Shown piece after piece: positions 1,684 through 28,200 of a DNA stretch of 29,152 bases. The first letter of the stretch is position 1; each line of letters opens with the position of its first letter. The notes beneath the pieces were generated by a model. The model was not told the origin of the DNA. It ran no database searches and saw only the letters and a list, made by a program, of their open reading frames with translations. The stretch lies in the NCBI GenBank assembly GCA_943704525.1, contig CALSCQ010001263.1, positions 1 through 29,152 on the forward strand, written 5' to 3'. The stretch comes from Pigoraptor vietnamica. Taxonomy: Eukaryota > Opisthokonta > Filasterea. Made by a program: the position numbers and the translations under genes.

Positions 1684-4600
1684 GTGCGCTCCCAGAGACC
1701 CTGCTTGCCGCTGAAGAAGTGGCGGAAGTTCGGAATGCGAAAGCGGTCAACCTGCGGGAGGCAAAGGTCAAGGTCACGTGAGCCGAACGAATGCCACTGC
1801 TGGACGTGACCGAGCCATGCAGTCAACACACACACACACACACACACATACACACACACGCACAAACACACACCTCGAAGCCCTTGGCGACGATGCGGTC
1901 GAGCAGGTCAATGTCCTCGCCCCCGCGCACGTCCGAGTACTCGTCCGTGTTCATGCCACCGACCGTCTCGAAGTCCCTCAGGTACAGCGCCATGAGTCCG
2001 AACCCGGCCAACTCCCAATAGCCCTGCGGGACGTTCTCGGGCGCCGTCGTGTGTCCCGCCGAATTGAGAGGGCGCGTGTTGTTGAATCCCTTCGCGATGC
2101 TGTACGGCGGCGTGCGCGTATCACCGCTGCCGCCGACCAGGCACTCGCCGCATTCCATCCGCGACACCACCGGCGCAAACACGAGCCGACCGGCCACCGT
2201 GTGCATGCGAATCGAGTCGAGAAGCTCGGGGGTGAAAAGCAGGTGGAGATCGCACAGGAAGAGTATGCGCTCGGCGTCGTTGAGACCCGTCGTGCGGTCG
2301 TTGCGCAACGTCTCGTACGCCGCCTGCAAGCCACCCGCGCGCTTGAACGTCCCCGACAGCTGGACGAGACGGTACTTGATGTTGAGCCGGCTGTTGCGCA
2401 GGGCAGCCTCGACGTCAATGTCCGAGCTGCCAAAGTCCGCTATCGTGAGATCGAACCGCGTGTCGCCGGTGAGCGACTGGATGTCCTCGAGGTCCCCGAG
2501 CAGGTGCTGCAGCCACTGGCCCTGGTTCTTCAGCGGCACCAGAATGTGCACAAACGCGCGCGGGTTCGGCTCGTGGTTCGCGGGACGGCACACACCGCAC
2601 ATCGCACCCGAGTTGGCGACGGCGTTCGGATTCGGTCTCCGCGACACAGAGTTGAACATGCCCATCTCGTTCGGGGGCTTCGCGCGCTCGAGCATCCACA
2701 TCCGCGCGGCCGAGACCGTGCCGAGGTCCAGCACGACCACATCGTGCACGCGGCGCTTCTCCTTGGTCTCGAGATGGTGCACGGCCACGTCGGCGTCGCA
2801 CCGCATGTTCCCGCGCTGGGGATCGTATTTGCAGTGGACGCGGACGACCTCGTCGAGCGCCCACGGGCGTGCCGCAGCCATGTCGCCGAGCGTCTTCTCA
2901 ATCGCCGGTGGTTCGGAAGCGACGCCGGGCTGCTGGAACGACGCCGCCATGCACGATGGCCGCTGCCCGCGCGCAATGTTGAGGCCATCCACGACCCGCT
3001 GAGCGACAAGGAGGGCGAGGTCCTCGGGGATTACCGCAGAGCCCGGGTCCGGACGCTTGGAGTTCGCCATCGCGGTCATGTCCGGCGGGAACACGGCGCT
3101 GGTGGATATCAGCATGGGGCTCGTGTACTTCTTGACCTCCCGCTGGCTGACGAACGACGGGTCGTAGATGCAGGTGGGAAGCGCGCCCCCGGTAATGACG
3201 TCGGTGCGGAGGTGGAACACGGTGTACGCGCGCTGGACCTGCAGCAGCCGGGCACACGATCGAATTGAGTGCCGGGTATGGGTGTGTCAGGAGTGCAGCG
3301 CATGTCCGTAATTCAAGTTTCGCCGCGTCGCCGGAACACTTTACAGTCGCAATGCAAACAGACCAAGCACAGCACGCGACGGCCGGCGTGCAGCGAGGAC
3401 CATGGGCAGCAGCCACACGTACCTCTCTGTATGGATAGCGCAGGCGGCCGCCGGGTACATAAGCGGGTCCGGACAGAGCGCGGATGTTCCAATTCTCAAA
3501 GTAGCGCTGGTTGAGGTCGTCGACGAGCTCCTCTGCAGGCGAGAGGCGAATCAGACACTGAAACACGAGACGATCCATATCCCCACACGCACATTTCCCT
3601 TCAACAGCAGGACGGACACTGACGGGAACACCAAACGGCACACATGGGTCTTACCTTCGCCCTTACACAGTGCGCGCACATACAGCGGCACATGCGCATG
3701 CTCCACGCACGCAACACGTGACACGCACCTTCTGCAAGGTGGACCAGCCAACCGGGGGGCACTTCTCTGAAGGAATCGTCCCCACGCGCTGTCCGGACGA
3801 GCACCCCGACACTGTCCGACGACGCGACGCCCTTGTGGACCACGTCGATCGCATAGTACTTGCCGGGCTCAAGGTGTATCGGGTGCGAGGCCTCGCGCAC
3901 ACCCGCGGCCATATCGGGCGGGTACCGCACAATCCGGTCCGAATTTACGCGTGCGAAGAGCGAGGCGCGCCGTGTGGCGTACGACACGTCACTCACAATC
4001 GCCACAGGAAGGGCTCCCATGGGCTCGAGGAAGAGCTCGCACTCGCCGCCGCACGCCAGGGTGAAGACGTACTCGCCTGGAATAGAACACGGGGGTATCA
4101 ATTGGGGAGCGACTCACATGGCAGAGGGACACGCAGCGACTAACACACGAGCGACTCCTGAGGACAGATAACACACACACGCCCGACTTATCGGCCAATT
4201 TCGCGCACCTGCAGCCGGCACCAATAGGAACCCAAAGATTCGCTGGAACGCCTGCGCCTCGTCCAACAAAGCGCTGAGCTTGGGCACCCTGTCCAGACGC
4301 GCCGGGCGTCCGTACACCTTCGGGTGCCGCCGCGTCTTCTCGATGGACGTCCCGCACAGCTCCGTGTGCAAGTGGCGAATGACACCGACGTCGAATCCGC
4401 TGGCTGGCCGCGGCGCAAACGAGTCCGCCGGGTTGCCCGGTTTGGCAACCGCAGCCGGCGCAGGCACCACAACGACCACGTGCTGGCCTGATCCGGGTGC
4501 CTCGACCGCGCCCGATTCGGGCACAGCGGCAGCGGGAGGCGCCACATTTGGCGCGGGAAGGCCCATTTGAAACGGGGGCGGCGCCTGTTGCTCGTTCCTA

Positions 4601-8549: not shown

Positions 8550-11222
8550 ATGTCGCCGGCGCTGTCGGGACGAAGGGCGGGTGCGCTCGTGGCGTGCCTC
8601 GCCCTTCTGCTATGCAGCGCGTCGGTCGCACGCGCGTATGTCTGCGGTGAGTGCGATTCTTCCTTAATTTCTCTCCCAATGTTTCGATGTCGAGGGTTGG
8701 GGATTATCCCTCCCGCTATCTGTTGGTCGCCCCGCGTGCTTAATTTGTGCGAGAATGGCATCGTGGTTAGGTCTCGGCAGTTGGAGGCACTCCATCCCTC
8801 TGGGGAAGGGCCGATCACGAGCTCGACTGTGCATTGGCCCACGCACAACCCCACTCCCGCCAGTTTATTTTTCATTTGTCACCCATGCGCGATTGCCTCA
8901 AATTCAAATTGCGCGGTTTACCATTCAAACCCCTCTCGCTTTTTTTGAAAATAATCCACGGACGACTGATCCCGCCCCACCTCTCACCTTCAGAGGACGA
9001 CATGTCGTTCGGTCTCGAGCTCGAGTACGCGGGCAGCGGCGACATGAAGGTCCTGCACATCAACCAGATGCCCGCGTCAAACTACGAGCGCCTCATGGGG
9101 GTCATCGCGTCGACCTTCGGCGTCACAGAACCCAAAATGGAGCACGTCGTCGACTTCGTGCCCCACCCGACGATGCCGGAGAAGTACGAGCCCCGTCGCG
9201 TGCGCACCGTGTACTGGGTCGATCCCTTCGAGCGCCGGTGGAAGATCACCGCCGAGTACGTCGCCAAGGGCGGTGTGTACGACGGCTACGAAGTCGTCTC
9301 GCCTCCCATGCGCAATCCCGACGAGGTCGAGGGCGTCGTCCGCGCGCTCGTGTCGTCGGGCTTCGTGGAGGAGGGCCTCAAGTCCGGCAGCCACGTGCAC
9401 ATCAACGCGAGCTGCCTCATCCATCCCGACGGGGAGGCGCGCGGCCTCGTGAACCTCTTCCTCCTCTACGAATCGAACGACCCGCTCATTCGCCGCATCT
9501 TCGGCACGCAGCATCTCGGCGGTTCGCAGAACGTCTTCTCCCAGGCCATGTACGAGAGCGTCCCCGAGGTCGTCGCGAGCATAGCGGCCCTCGCGCCCGA
9601 GAACAGGACGGTCGCCGGTCTCACCGAAATTTTCGACCGCTTCCGCCCCAAGGAAATCGAGCACTTGGGCCTCGCCGGGCGCGAGACCATCTCCCTTGCC
9701 AATCTCAAGAAGATCTGGAAGTACCATTCCGTGAACCTCGTCAACTCGCTGCCCATCAACTCGGTGCTTCCCGCCAAGAAGCGCACCGTCGAGTTCCGCG
9801 CCTTCGATCTCATGGACCCCCGCTCCCACCGCCTCGCGATCGAGCTCGTCCGCGCGATGGTCAAGAAGGCGGCCGCCCTTGCCGCCGCGGGCATCGACAT
9901 CCGTCTGGACAAGCCCCTCCAGCGGTCGCCCATGTTCACCGAGTCGTCCATCTCGCTGCTCCCCGCCGACCCGCACGAGGTCCGCGCGATGGCACACGAT
10001 TTCATCGCGTCGCTTGGGCTCGACACGGCCATGTTCGAGCACCGCTTCCGCCTGATCGTCGAGGGTGGCAACAAGCGCATTCCGCTGGATGCGCCCGTCT
10101 ACACCCCGCGCAAGGGCAAGAAGGGAGACGCCGACGAGTTCAAGTCGGGCTCGGTGCAAGACCTCTTGAACGACGACGACGACGAGTATGAGAGCGCCGA
10201 CTTCGCCGTTGGTACGGCGGAGGCGGGCGTCGATGACGAGGCGCTCGGCGAGAACATCCTCGGGTCGACGCATGCGCGCCGCCGCAACGCGCCCAAGGCC
10301 AAGACCAAGCGCGGCGCCAAGAAGGAGAAGCGCGACGAGGGCGACAAGGTGGCGTCGCTCGTGGGCCTCGAGGACGGCGTCGCCGAGAACGAGGACGACG
10401 ACACGCTGACGTTTGGCGCGTGGCAGCAGCAGAAGGCGCGCGTGCTCGAGCAGCAGGCGAACGAGCAGCGCATGCGCCGGATGGCCGAAGCGGCCCTTCG
10501 CCTCGTCGGCTCGTGCGACCCCAACCCCTGCCAGAACGGCGGCACGTGCGTGGAAGAAGACAAGGACGTCCACTGCGAGTGTCCCGACGACTTCGGCGGC
10601 GAATTTTGCGAGATCGACAAGCGCAAGACGTGCGCGGACAAGCCCTGCCACGCGCACGCGGACTGCTCCGACGTTCCCAGCGGCGAAAACCGCTACACGT
10701 GCACGTGCCAGACCGGGTACGAGGGCGACGGTGTGCACACTTGCGACGAGATCGACGGGTGCCTTACGACCACTTGCGCCGAGTTCGCGACCTGCAACCG
10801 CACGGGCCCCGGGACCGCCGAGTGCAACTGCGACGAAGGCTACGAGGGTGACGCCTACGTCGCCGGGTGCACGGAGATCGACGCGTGCTTGGCGAACCCT
10901 TGCCTCACGGACGCGACCTGCGAGAAGACGGGGCCGAACAAGTTCAAGTGCCACTGCCCCGCGGACTTCGTCGGCGACGGCATCACGGACTGCCAGTGTG
11001 GGTGCCACGTGCACACTTGTTGTTGGCTGCGGCATGCGTGCGGTGTTCGCAGGGTTTGGGTTTGGCCGTTATTTGTGTTTAAGGGTGCGGGCGCGACAGC
11101 CTCTGTGGTTGTGTGCGTGTGTGCGTGTGTGCGTGTGTGTGTGTGCGTGCGTGTCTGTGCGTGTGTGTGCGTGCGTGTGTGTGTGTGTCTGTGTCTGTGT
11201 CTGTGTGTGTGTGTGTGTGCGC

Positions 11223-11253
<31 letters not shown>

Positions 11254-13530
11254 TGTGTGTTTGTGTTTGTGTGTGTGTGGCGGGCATGGGTCAACCACGT
11301 GTGTCATCAGTGTCTGTCACTCACCTTCCTTTCCCCGCCCCGCGCAGTCGTTCCCCAATCGGACACGGTCAACTTCGGCCCCACGGGCTCCTTCATCCTC
11401 CACTCGAACCACCTCTTCGACCAGGCGGCAAACGTCTCGCTCAAGTTCCGCTTCAAGTCGCAGCGCTCGGGCACCCTGTTCGCGGGTCAGTCGGGCCCAT
11501 CCAGCTTCGTGTTCCTCCGTCTCGACGCTCTTGGTGCGCAGCTCATCCTCAATCTCGGCGGCGGTGCCGTGCTGGCCTCGAAGGCCGGACAGTTCCTCGA
11601 CGGCCGCTGGCACTCGCTCGAGGTCGACATTCGCACGCCGTTCGTGACGCTCTCCGTTGATGGGCTCTCGTCCACTCTCATCGCGCCGGCGTCGTCGACG
11701 GGCCTCGATCTCCCCGACCAGTTCCAAATTGGCAACTTTGGTGGCTGTATTACCGTTCTTGGCATCCAGGGTCGCAACCTTACCGGCGGGCTCTTCCGTC
11801 CCGTCAAGATTAGCGACTACTACTGGGGCTGCCCGCTCCCCGACATCGAGTTCACGATCGGTCTCGTGCCGACGGGCTTCTTCAGCATCCCCAAGAATCG
11901 GCTCAACCAGCAGAAGGACGTTTGGGTCAAGATGGACTTCCGCACGGCCGTGCGCAACGGCGACGCGCTCCTCTTCCTCGCCGGTTCGACGACGCTCAAC
12001 ACCGAATTCCGCGTGTCGGCGTCGGAGGCTGGCGTCACTCTCAAGGTGAACTTTGGTTCGGCGCCCCGCTACGTCTTCGTTCCGGGCGAGTTCGCCGACG
12101 GCTTCTGGCACACGTTCGTCGCCACCATCAACGCCGGCAAGCTCATCCTCACGGTGGACGACGTCACCCGCAACGGCGTGGGACTCTACCCGGCGAACGT
12201 CAAGGCGATGCGCACGAACGGTGCCATGACGCTGGGCGGCGGGTTCACCGGCTGCTTGCGCAACCTCATCATCAACGACGAGACTATCAGCTTCCGCGAG
12301 ACCAACGCGGCGGGCCTCGGTTTCCAGTACGGCTGCCCCGCGAACTCGGACGCGTGCTCGCTGACCCCGTGCGTCAACGCGGGCAAATGCTCCAACACGG
12401 TCGCGGGTAACTACTCGTGCGCGTGCGTCCCCGGCGTGTACGGCACGTACTGCCAGCAGTCCCGCACCAACACCATCTCGTTCACTGGCGACGGCTACCT
12501 CTCGCTCAACGGGAACCCCTTCACGATCATCCGCCTCAACACGATCACGTTCTCGTTCAAGACGTCGTCGGGCGCCGGCCTGCTCTTCTACACGGGGCAC
12601 CGCGGCGACGACCAAATCTACATGAAGACAACCGACGCCGGCGGCCTCGTGATCGGGTACGAGCTCGGCAGCGGCATTGGCGAGGTCGCCGCCCCCGGCC
12701 CGTACAACGACAACCGATGGCACTACGTCGTCGTGACGCGTGTGGGCAAGAAGTCGACGATCATTGTCGATGGAAATCTCGCCGTCGTCGGTGAGATTGC
12801 CGGGTGGGCGCAGGCCTTGAACATCGACCCCTCCGCCTCGCTCAACATCGGAGGCCTTCCCCCTGGCGACACGTCCGTCGCCGTGCCGCGCTTCAACGGG
12901 TGCCTGCGCGAGCTTCGCGTGGACGACAAGATGGTGGACTTCAACGGCGTCGGCCTCGTGCAGCGCAACCGCCGGTTCGGCTGCGCGTCAGGGGCGATCG
13001 CCGAGGTTGGCTTCGCGAACGGCTACATGTCGTTTGCGCCGTTCAACCCGCGCGGCGAGAGCACCATCTCGCTGTATTTCCGTACGAGCAAGGCCAACGG
13101 GACGATCGTGTACGGCGGACAGGCGCCGACGTCGACGGACTTCGATTACATCACGCTGTACATGCGCAACGGGCAGGTCTTCTTCGAGTTCTTCGCCGGT
13201 TACGACAACGTCGTGGCGTTCACCAAGCAGCGTTACGACGACGGCGCCTGGCACCAGGTCACCGCCACGCGCGTGGGCGGCAACAGCATCCTCTACGTCG
13301 ACACGGAGCGCGTGCGTGCGTTCAGCGCGGACAAGGAGGGTCGCGTCAAGTCGGTCGATCTCACGGGACCGCTCTTCATCGGCCGTGCTGACAACGGGCG
13401 CGCCAACTGGCCGTTCTTCACGGGCTGCGTGCGCGAGGTTCTCCTATCCTCCGTCGGCGTGGGAACGGTCAACCTCGACCTCCACAACCCGCTGACGAAG
13501 AGCAACGTGTTGGACTCGTGCGCGCCGTGA
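8550..13530 (+). CDS. Secreted amidoligase / EGF / laminin-G fusion protein
   Basis: Exons 8550-8646, 8994-10997 and 11348-13530 join in phase (1, 1) to 1427 residues. Residues 1-28 are a signal peptide ([17 protein letters not shown], then YVC). About 36-330 match the Amidoligase_2 family, GS-fold COOH-NH2 ligases that use ATP to form amide bonds: FGLELEY (38-44), YWVDP then [15 protein letters not shown] with H166/H168, and VEFRAF with E299/R301. An acidic (NDDDDEYE) and Lys/Arg-rich linker follows. Next come four EGF modules (about 540-700), laminin-G 1 (706-861) and 2 (865-1032), an EGF module (1035-1070), laminin-G 3 (1078-1247) and 4 (1253-1427). No C-terminal membrane anchor or GPI signal is visible, so it should be secreted. 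EGF and laminin-G modules normally bind glycans and matrix proteins. The substrate is unknown. Internal M36 is a possible alternative start that would drop the signal. Confidence 0.85.
11109..11280. repeat. (TG)n microsatellite in intron
   Basis: This TG/CG-interrupted tract lies in the 10998-11347 intron between the EGF and laminin-G halves of the amidoligase gene. The ORF that reads through it is not coding. Confidence 0.95.
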
Positions 13531-25288: not shown

Positions 25289-28200
25289 CACTCACACACA
25301 CACACCCCGTCCCCATTCACTAATACGGAGCTCTCTACGTCCTGTGCGATGTGCAGCTGGATGGACCTGTTTGCAGGCACCTTAGGCACGCGCGTTACCA
25401 CTGTCGGTGGCAATGCAACGCTCCTCCAGCGCGTTATCCAGGTGCGTGTGCATGCGCGCCGCAATGAGACCATCGACCACTGCGGCGTCGAGGCTTGTCA
25501 GGGGCCGTTATGGCTGCGTGCCGTCCGTTTCGTCCCCCTTTTCCCTGTTGCTGACCCAGCAAAACTCACCGCTGTTGTGCAGAGATGGAACAGCCTCAAT
25601 CTGACGTCTTTCGCGCCCGAGAATCCGACGGCAGTGCCTACGGCGGGGGTTGCGGCGAACGGAGAGCCGACGGGAGGGCTCGCGCTCACGGGATCGCTCG
25701 CTTTCGATGCGGTAGGTTGCCGGCCGAGTCCGTGCGTGCTTGTGTGCGCGTATATGGGCGTACTTGTGCGTGTGTGTGCGTGCGTGCACGTACATGCGTG
25801 AGTGTGTGTGCGTGAGAGTGGAGTGCTCGACCCCTGACGCGCGGGCTGTCGGCTGCAGGTGACCGTGATCGCACGCGCCTTCCACCGCCTGCTGTACGAT
25901 CTCCACGGTGAGAAGAACCACGCGGACGCCTACGCCCTTATGCTCGCGCAGACATTTCTCGGCGTCGGAGGGAACGTTTCGTTTGATACGAACGGGGATA
26001 TCATTGCGATACGAAAAGCGGTGCAGCTGCGCGTGGACGTCAGCGTGGTAGGCGCCTGTCATTTTCAGTCACTGTTGGCTCGGTGGATAACACACACACA
26101 CGCACACACACACAGACAATTGCATACGCACAATCACACACGCACGCGCGCATGCACACACACACACACTCACTCAATTACATACACACACGCGCACACA
26201 CACACGCATTGCACAACACACATACGCGCTCAGCGCACTCAAGCACACATCGAGAGTGCCTTGTCGTTCACAGTCTGGGTTACTTGCACCGCAGGCGCCT
26301 GGTTCTCCCCTCCGTTTCTACAAGCACGACTGGGGCAGCATTGCCTTTGCTCCGGGCTTTGTGCCGTCACTTGCTGACATGTCGTCACAGCCTGACGCGC
26401 GCGGATGGGTTGGGATGCAGTGGCACGGGCCCAACAACAACACCGTCCCCGTCGCATGTGAGTGATAGCTGCGGTCACGTGCTGGGTGCTCTGTAGCTTT
26501 CTGCAGTGACCTGCAAGCAAACATGCGCGTGCTTCTGCGTCACTTATTGCGGCGAATGGGTCGATCCACGTTGTTCCAAACTAGCGCTCCCCATAGTCAC
26601 TCACCTCCGCGGCGCAGTCACGTGCTCACCGGCGTGCGGCACTGGTGGCACGTGCGTCTCGCACAACAAGTGCGCGTGCTCCGCTGGCTTCACGGGGGTG
26701 TACTGCGATAAGAGTGAGCATCAGCGCACGTGCGCTCATGTATGTGTGTCCATACACTCTTTCTGCATGTGTTTGTGTGCCTACACCGACCGTGGTATAT
26801 CAGGACGTGTGTTTGTGCGCCCGTACACCTGTCCTGCATGGGTGTGAGCGTTGAGTCCTTCTTTTCGGCTTGAATGCCTCATGGTGCTGCAACGCGCGCG
26901 AGTGTGACGCGTGCATCAGACGAGTGTTGACGTGTCACTCCTTCGTATGTTCTCACCTTTCCACACGCCCCGCCCTCCCATAGTGCTCGCGGTGTTCACG
27001 ACGTCCTCCACCAAGACAACAAACACACTGGCCATTGCACTCCCCATCGCCCTCTGCGCCGGTCTCGTCGCGGTCGCCGTCGTCCTTATCCGCCATTACA
27101 CCACGCGCCGCTCGCGCCAGTTGATGAACGACCGGCGTTACTACGTCCATCCCGCCGAAGTAACCCTCGGCGACATGATCGCGGAGGGCTCGTTTGGGGT
27201 CGTCTACAGGTGGGCGTGGGGTTGGGGTTAGAGCAAGGCTGCAAGCAACAGCGCTGTTGCTGTCTGGCAATTGGTGGCGCTCTCTGTTACTGCTCAGCCC
27301 TCCAGTTACCCGCATGCGTTAGTGCTCGCGCCACCACTCTCTCTGTTTGCCACCCCGACACATGCGAAGAATCCCGCGCGCAACGACATGCGCGGGCTGG
27401 CGAATTCACTGCAACCCCTCCCGCCCCACGGATCGCACGCAGAGCTTCGTTTCGCGGCACCACCGTGGCTGCGAAAGTGCTCAAGGTGAAGGACAGCGCC
27501 GCCGCAAACGGCGACAAGAACGCGTCTTCGCGCTTCGACCAGTCGCTGTTTGCGACGGAGGCGCGGAGGCCGTCCCGCACCCTCGTGCGCAACGCGATCG
27601 GTGCGGGCTTCATGTCCACCCTCGGCACCCGGACGCAGTGAGTGTCTGGACGGGGTTGTGTGCGTTCCGTTTGATCCGAAGTCTTGTCGTTACGCAATGT
27701 GTAGTATGTCTCTCTGCCCAATTGTCAATCAGTTCAATATCTCTATCTCTCTGTGCGCAGTCACTGTCTGCATTGTGGCTGTTGTTCCTACATTTGTGTG
27801 TGTTTAATGTGTGGTGTTGATGTGTGTGTGTTTGTGTCTGTGTAAACTTGTTTGTGTGTGTGCGTGTGTGCTCTAATATATATATGTGGTGTTGATGTGC
27901 GTGTGTGTGTCTGTGTAAACTTGTTTGTGTGTGTGCGTGTGTGCTCTAATATGTGGTGTTGATGTGTGTGTGTGTGTCTGTGTAAAGTTGTTTGCGTGTG
28001 TGCGTGTGTGCCTTGCTGGCTCGCATGCTTCACGTGAGGCATTACCCCGCATTCGCGTTCATGCCTCTGTGCCTTGATGTCGTCACTCTGACGCTGTCTC
28101 GGCTGCGTTGTGCAGGAACAATCGCAACGAAGAGAAGGCGTTTGAGAGCGCAAAGGCGGACTTCTTCAACGAGGTCGACTTGCTGTCGGGGTTCAGGTGC

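Follow-up and report, generated by a model that had tools for sequence, protein, structure and literature searches.

An amidoligase domain joined to EGF and laminin-G modules

The window analyzed here, meaning the whole stretch of 29,152 nucleotides of contig CALSCQ010001263.1 (C516 below) from the filasterean Pigoraptor vietnamica (assembly GCA_943704525.1, 32.5 Mb in 1395 contigs), holds on its forward strand a three-exon gene with a predicted product of 1427 residues. This product consists of a signal peptide, an Amidoligase_2 domain, an acidic linker and four epidermal growth factor (EGF) modules, followed by a tail in which two laminin-G (LamG) domains, a fifth EGF module and two further LamG domains succeed one another (Table 1). 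The exons measure 97, 2004 and 2183 nt, and both introns are of the GT-AG type (GTGAGT..CAG and GTGGGT..CAG) and lie in phase 1. A first-pass annotation, made from the letters alone, had proposed this gene with the same frames and coordinates, and the frames, Pfam matches and motifs bear it out. In particular, the proposed amidoligase region scores 28.2 bits against the Pfam profile PF12224, above the cut-off of 22 (E 2.2e-6, residues 3-285 of the exon-2 frame), and contains all of the named motifs (FGLELEY, EVVSPP, HVH and EFR); the motif list for this family (FGxExE, E..PP, HxH, EFR) was drawn in part from the first-pass annotation. Exon 3 matches Laminin_G_2 with E 2.9e-64 in four LamG stretches.

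The signal peptide was judged from hydropathy and from its ARA/YV end, with cleavage placed after ARA by eye. Because the exon-1 peptide is the sole hydrophobic stretch of the entire protein, the product reads as secreted and without a membrane anchor. Both the joining of an amidoligase to EGF/LamG modules in one gene and the secreted topology that had been proposed are supported; the cross-linking or tagging of surface proteins that the annotation also suggested is a hypothesis. Our preferred interpretation, held tentatively and at somewhat less than even confidence, is that the window protein is a secreted ATP-dependent carboxylate-amine ligase that is held on surfaces or matrix by its EGF and LamG modules.

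Table 1. Features of the amidoligase-EGF/LamG gene (positions in the window)
Feature	Position	Strand	Evidence
Exon 1: start codon and signal peptide (residues 1-29), phase-1 intron behind	8550..8646	+	Frame reading, hydropathy; junction seen in P. chileana P0012
Exon 2 (2004 nt, symmetric phase 1-1): amidoligase domain, acidic linker, EGF1-4	8994..10997	+	Pfam and frame reading
Amidoligase_2 domain as modelled (361 aa); Pfam match 9008-9856	9002..10084	+	Profile 28.2 bits; pLDDT 91.2, pTM 0.91
FGxExE motif (FGLELEY)	9008..9028	+	Alignment
DGYEVVSPP motif	9281..9307	+	Alignment
HVHIN motif; second His not retained in three bacterial sequences compared	9392..9406	+	Alignment
EFRAFD motif; Glu missing in two degenerate tandem paralogues	9791..9808	+	Alignment
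Charged linker, poorly conserved (38% to P. chileana), residues 401-538	10097..10510	+	Comparison
EGF modules 1-4	10514..10987	+	PF00008, four stretches, E 2.7e-18
Exon 3: LamG1, LamG2, EGF5, LamG3, LamG4, stop; no membrane span or hydrophobic tail	11348..13530	+	Pfam, hydropathy
LamG1, borders by eye	11371..11829	+	One of four Pfam LamG stretches
LamG2, borders by eye	11842..12345	+	One of four Pfam LamG stretches
EGF5 between LamG2 and LamG3	12355..12444	+	16.3 bits, below Pfam cut-off 21.5; 23/30 residues identical in P. chileana
LamG3, borders by eye	12460..12939	+	One of four Pfam LamG stretches
LamG4	13078..13446	+	Best Pfam stretch, residues 577-699 of exon-3 frame

The architecture is conserved in Pigoraptor chileana

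Two proteins of the sister species P. chileana, P0012 and P0009, are orthologues of the window gene; we take P. chileana to be Opistho-2 in EukProt and Opistho-1 to be P. vietnamica, and the EukProt entries for P. chileana are presumably transcript-derived. P0012 starts with its own leader and reproduces the first splice junction, and it is apparently frameshifted past about residue 196, leaving window residues 197-305 without P. chileana coverage. P0009 begins within the amidoligase domain (window residue 306) and continues through EGF and LamG in the same order as the window protein; at the second splice junction it reads GITKCKFFPPSDTV, where the window reads GITDCQFVPQSDTV. For the check that the first-pass annotation proposed, RNA reads spanning both junctions, these predicted proteins with the same junctions serve only as a proxy. 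The amidoligase domain is 84% identical between the two species over the 186 of its 295 residues that are covered, with 61% for EGF1-4, 71, 65, 78 and 77% for LamG1-4, 77% for EGF5, 38% for the linker and 31% for the signal peptide. The protein searches also recovered a third sequence, P0005 from a Logan contig, which combines amidoligase, EGF and LamG at 48% identity; it begins inside the first motif, and its amidoligase match of 21.9 bits lies just below the cut-off.

These comparisons also bear on the most trivial explanation, namely that misassembly, contamination or wrong splicing produced a false fusion. The P. vietnamica genome was indeed assembled from cultures that also contained the eukaryote Parabodo caudatus (PMC9492541). 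However, the amidoligase domain and EGF1-4 share one open exon, and P0009 carries the amidoligase end, EGF and LamG in a single protein. In addition, the orthologues differ by 16-39% in their folded parts, so that they are not a shared contaminant, and GC content at third codon positions is uniform over the three parts (0.91, 0.915 and 0.891) compared with 0.739 in a neighboring Myb frame. On this evidence we reject an artefact as highly improbable.

The first domain is predicted to have a glutamine-synthetase-like fold

An AlphaFold2 model of the amidoligase domain, built from a 17-sequence input, reached a predicted local distance difference test score (pLDDT) of 91.2 and a predicted template modeling score (pTM) of 0.91. 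When compared with the Protein Data Bank (PDB) by Foldseek, it matched 1tt4 (E 3e-6, probability 1.0, TM 0.43, 12% identity), which is titled a predicted glutathione synthase and which we take to be a YbdK-type carboxylate-amine ligase. The second PDB chain to reach E 0.001 was an S-adenosylmethionine decarboxylase in a partial alignment (8.4e-4, TM 0.22/0.30). In the viral structure library BFVD, 23 rows fell below 0.001; 11 of these, the top-ranking row among them (E 2.3e-10, TM 0.51/0.54), carry the name amidoligase, and the others comprise nine unnamed and two uncharacterised proteins and one called a glutamine amidotransferase domain protein. An amidoligase profile run against PDB sequences gave three chance-level matches up to E 10, none of them a ligase. 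The model predicts a glutamine-synthetase/YbdK-type carboxylate-amine ligase fold for the first domain, in line with the fold that had been anticipated, and profile, motifs and predicted fold together support the amidoligase identity.

The YbdK-like nearest solved fold could also be taken to mean that the enzyme ligates small molecules, in the manner of YbdK or glutamate-cysteine ligase, outside the cell or in the secretory lumen, with the EGF/LamG tail serving only to localize it. Other amidoligases were reportedly predicted by Iyer et al. in 2009 to make metabolites, which would fit such a role. We consider it unlikely, since the amidoligase profile has no sequence-level match to solved ligases and an EGF and LamG tail on a long linker would better suit macromolecular partners.

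Paralogues include membrane-bound and degenerate copies

The P. vietnamica genome contains at least six copies of the amidoligase domain: the window copy, one each on contigs C1171 and C395, and a tandem of three on C103 (C103a, C103b and C103c). Two short, weak matches on C1304 (27 residues) and C777 (50 residues with stops) may be fragments. An EGF module follows the domain also in C1171, C395 and C103a, and the intron after the signal exon of the C1171 copy is likewise in phase 1. The EukProt protein Opistho-1_new@56791 (P0003) maps to C1171 with 99.8-100% identity over residues 1-46, 46-119 and 118-774 and extends beyond the contig end. The remainder of the protein matches nothing in the assembly at full identity (at best 83% over 93 residues), so P0003 was probably derived from other data, for instance a transcriptome. 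In P0003, one EGF module is followed by a Ser/Thr-rich stalk and a membrane span; its N-terminal leader falls below the hydropathy cut, and that of P. chileana P0004 passes.

To compare these copies, 61 invariant columns were defined over seven references (the window copy, C1171, P0004, P0005, P0006, P0007 and P0008), with P0005 left out of the count for the first columns, which its sequence does not include. C395 retains 57 of these columns, C103a 55, C103b 52 and C103c 46. The window copy, C1171, C395 and C103a retain every named motif residue, while both C103b and C103c have lost the EFR Glu and C103b also the first His of HVH. The ExE, DGYE, H131 and EFR elements are common to the window copy, three other P. 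vietnamica copies, P0004, P0005 and three bacterial sequences described below. PF12224 scores of the relatives lie on both sides of the cut-off: 32.3 bits in the bacterial L018 protein, 28.7 in P0008, 27.2 in P0003, 22.2 in the C395 frame, 21.9 in P0005, 21.2 in P0006, 18.0 in P0004 and 16.3 in P0007. In C103a, C103b and C103c, whose main frames do not include the first domain exon, those frames had no PF12224 match.

This pattern is the basis for the main and serious rival to an enzymatic function, in which the amidoligase fold is a non-catalytic binding or receptor ectodomain and the protein serves in adhesion or recognition as other EGF/LamG proteins do. The two degenerate copies preserve much of the domain despite their lost motif residues, and in a further copy the domain belongs to a stalked membrane protein that has a single EGF module. 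On the other hand, four copies, including that in the window, retain all named motif residues, and the amidoligase domain, where covered, is better conserved between the Pigoraptor species than any LamG or EGF part (61-78%). While we take this alternative seriously, we judge it less probable than not.

Several further observations concern the paralogues. The degenerate tandem copies (L012 4570-7409, minus strand), in whose main frames no EGF was found, are candidate pseudoenzymes from their sequences. A glycosylation sequon, N170-S172 (HVHINAS, window 9404-9412), overlaps the HVH motif in the alignment by eye; it is present in the window copy, C1171, C395, C103a, P0004 and P0005 but absent from both degenerate C103 copies and from the bacterial sequences. 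The domains of C1171 and C395 (L010, L011) are 64% alike, and both contigs end in the same peptide, SSQPRSTTALSASAKKNAIKVTFANLDQQTFQTQYE, which may reflect either recent homogenization at their 3' ends or a repeat common to both that broke the assembly. Sequences similar to the stalk and membrane-proximal region of P0003 occur elsewhere in the genome (L014 1277-2587 on C1346 and L013 3285-3761 on C1381). Beside the tandem copies on C103, a minus-strand frame (L028 1080-3908) encodes numerous EGF-like repeats along with a membrane span and a tail rich in YAQP/YEPP-type tyrosine repeats; by eye, we take it to be reminiscent of Draper/MEGF10 engulfment receptors.

Bacterial relatives suggest lateral transfer

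Three length-bounded protein searches, each scoring about 8000 candidates that shared most words, gave 1, 7 and 5 matches at E <=0.01. Besides the sequences from P. vietnamica, P. chileana and Logan (P0005), these included two proteins from metagenome-assembled genomes of Planctomycetota (P0006 and P0008), together with P0007, P0010, P0011, P0013 and P0014, all of which align with P0006 and P0008. A scan of GTDB contigs confirmed seven loci (L015-L021) out of 97 pattern stretches, in four genomes; six are from Planctomycetota and one from an uncultured bacterium. The family was present in 6 of 392 Planctomycetota genomes surveyed, four of which were already known from the GTDB scan (that is, in 2 of the 388 others).

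The bacterial relatives (L015-L021, P0006-P0008) are about 40% identical to the window protein over the whole domain and are long proteins (1381 residues in P0006, 1950 in P0007 and 2455 in L018). Since they have leader-like starts by eye, secretion of this amidoligase subfamily is perhaps not unique to the protist, though among P0006, P0007 and L018 only P0007 passes the hydropathy cut. Neither EGF nor LamG was found in the four bacterial proteins scanned with Pfam (P0006-P0008 and L018); helix-hairpin-helix repeats are present in L018 and P0007 and absent from P0006 and the partial P0008. Behind the amidoligase domain, six of the seven loci carry a second stretch with GFExEG, HLH(M/L)RDN and EIRG motifs, which is degenerate in L021 and P0006. 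A model of this stretch (pLDDT 72.8) resembled PafA with probability 0.89 and glutamine synthetase with 0.95, with no E below 0.001 and with HMG-CoA reductases among the top rows, and is only suggestive of a glutamine-synthetase-like domain; the L015-L021 proteins are possible tandem ligases.

In a tree of 20 rows, built without an outgroup and rooted at the midpoint, the filasterean-type sequences group together on one side (100/100), and P0005 lies outside Pigoraptor (88/86, an unstarred branch). The patchy distribution, the 40% identity across domains of life and the lack of a nearer relative in our searches argue for lateral transfer between bacteria and the filasterean lineage, the direction of which rests on the root. 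Given this position of P0005, the stalked membrane type may have been derived from an older EGF-LamG arrangement, again depending on the root. A viral origin was also considered and rejected: two scans of viral_contigs yielded 37 and 12 pattern stretches, none of them a confirmed relative. Phage records gave one match at E 0.3, and plasmid records none.

A proposed extracellular amide ligase

If the window protein is a surface-held ligase, as we favor, its amidoligase domain would use Mg-ATP, probably in the lumen of the endoplasmic reticulum (ER) or Golgi, or else ATP outside the cell. A carboxyl group would be activated as an acyl phosphate and an amine then joined to it, while the EGF/LamG tail would keep the enzyme bound to glycans or proteins, either at the cell surface or in the pericellular matrix; at the plasma membrane, the membrane-bound copy would have the same task. 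Likely substrates would be acidic side chains of surface proteins, which would receive isopeptide links or amine tags, or else uronic acids in surface polysaccharide. ATP-using amide-bond enzymes are generally regarded as cytosolic; secretory-pathway kinases do use ATP in the ER/Golgi lumen. A planctomycete-type amidoligase was probably acquired and then joined to extracellular modules through phase-1 introns, phase 1-1 exons being the classic substrate of extracellular module shuffling in animals.

A number of points weigh against this interpretation. Free ATP is scarce outside cells, which also favors the non-catalytic alternative. The TM-scores to 1tt4 and to the best phage amidoligase are modest, the loss of the EFR glutamate in two of the six P. 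vietnamica copies indicates that the fold can persist without motif residues, and the second His of HVH is missing from the bacterial relatives. The substrates named above are a guess, with no partner gene identified.

The same protein could instead act on other cells, with the predator releasing it to bind or modify the surfaces of prey or bacteria. Pigoraptor is a predator that eats eukaryotes (PMC7147346), and the protein is secreted without an anchor and has a domain akin to bacterial proteins. Nevertheless, at least one other copy encodes a protein with a membrane span (P0003), the window offers no sign of delivery, and we give this possibility little credence.

A broader form of the surface-ligase proposal, which we regard as doubtful, is that Pigoraptor and its kin run ATP-driven amide-ligase chemistry outside the cytosol, using a laterally acquired planctomycete-type amidoligase that is deployed in six copies and in both matrix and membrane-receptor architectures for isopeptide links or uronic-acid amidation. 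If true, a close relative of animals would possess an enzyme for covalent matrix building that depends on neither transglutaminases nor lysyl oxidases. With a conserved amide ligase on matrix modules, the early extracellular matrix would gain a covalent-modification chemistry; the protein would also stand as a clear example of how a bacterial-type enzyme was shuffled into an animal-type extracellular architecture.

Neighboring genes in the window

About 5 kb from the LamG gene, on the minus strand (1823-3286), an open frame matches chondroitin N-acetylgalactosaminyltransferase (CHGN E 2.8e-18, Glyco_transf_7C 2.2e-9), a glycosaminoglycan-type glycosyltransferase in a filasterean. On the plus strand at 26497-27820, an EGF-like exon below the Pfam cut-offs precedes a hydrophobic stretch and, by eye, a kinase-like GSFGVVYR motif; from its sequence this is perhaps a receptor kinase, and Pfam gave no match in its two later frames.

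Comparison with known systems

The first-pass annotation knew of no described family that couples an amidoligase to matrix modules, and we likewise found no description of such a protein among the matches listed in open-licence literature on amidoligases/PF12224 or Pigoraptor, nor in passages of PMC10945688, PMC7147346, PMC9492541, PMC12716839, PMC12419801 and PMC12239564.

The first domain resembles Amidoligase_2 proteins, including phage amidoligases, in its above-cut-off profile match, its four motifs and its predicted glutamine-synthetase-like fold. Described members of this family are known as cytosolic proteins that belong to peptide-modification or metabolite gene sets. The window protein differs in being secreted and joined to EGF and LamG modules. 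The planctomycete-type proteins are similar over the whole domain and in their leader-like starts, but those scanned have no EGF or LamG, and they differ in their second glutamine-synthetase-like stretch, in the helix-hairpin-helix repeats of L018 and P0007 and in the missing second His of HVH. The 1tt4 structure is the best solved fold, at low identity and TM-score; the profile search of PDB sequences gave no sequence-level similarity to the YbdK/GCS2 family. YbdK-type ligases are, moreover, known as cytosolic. Neurexin, agrin and laminin-alpha proteins have, to our knowledge, no amidoligase domain. Although the window protein, unlike neurexin, has no membrane span after its LamG modules (in hydropathy only the signal peptide passes the cut), its LamG-EGF-LamG tail is like that of all three, and its nearest solved chain is neurexin-1-alpha (E 8.9e-58).

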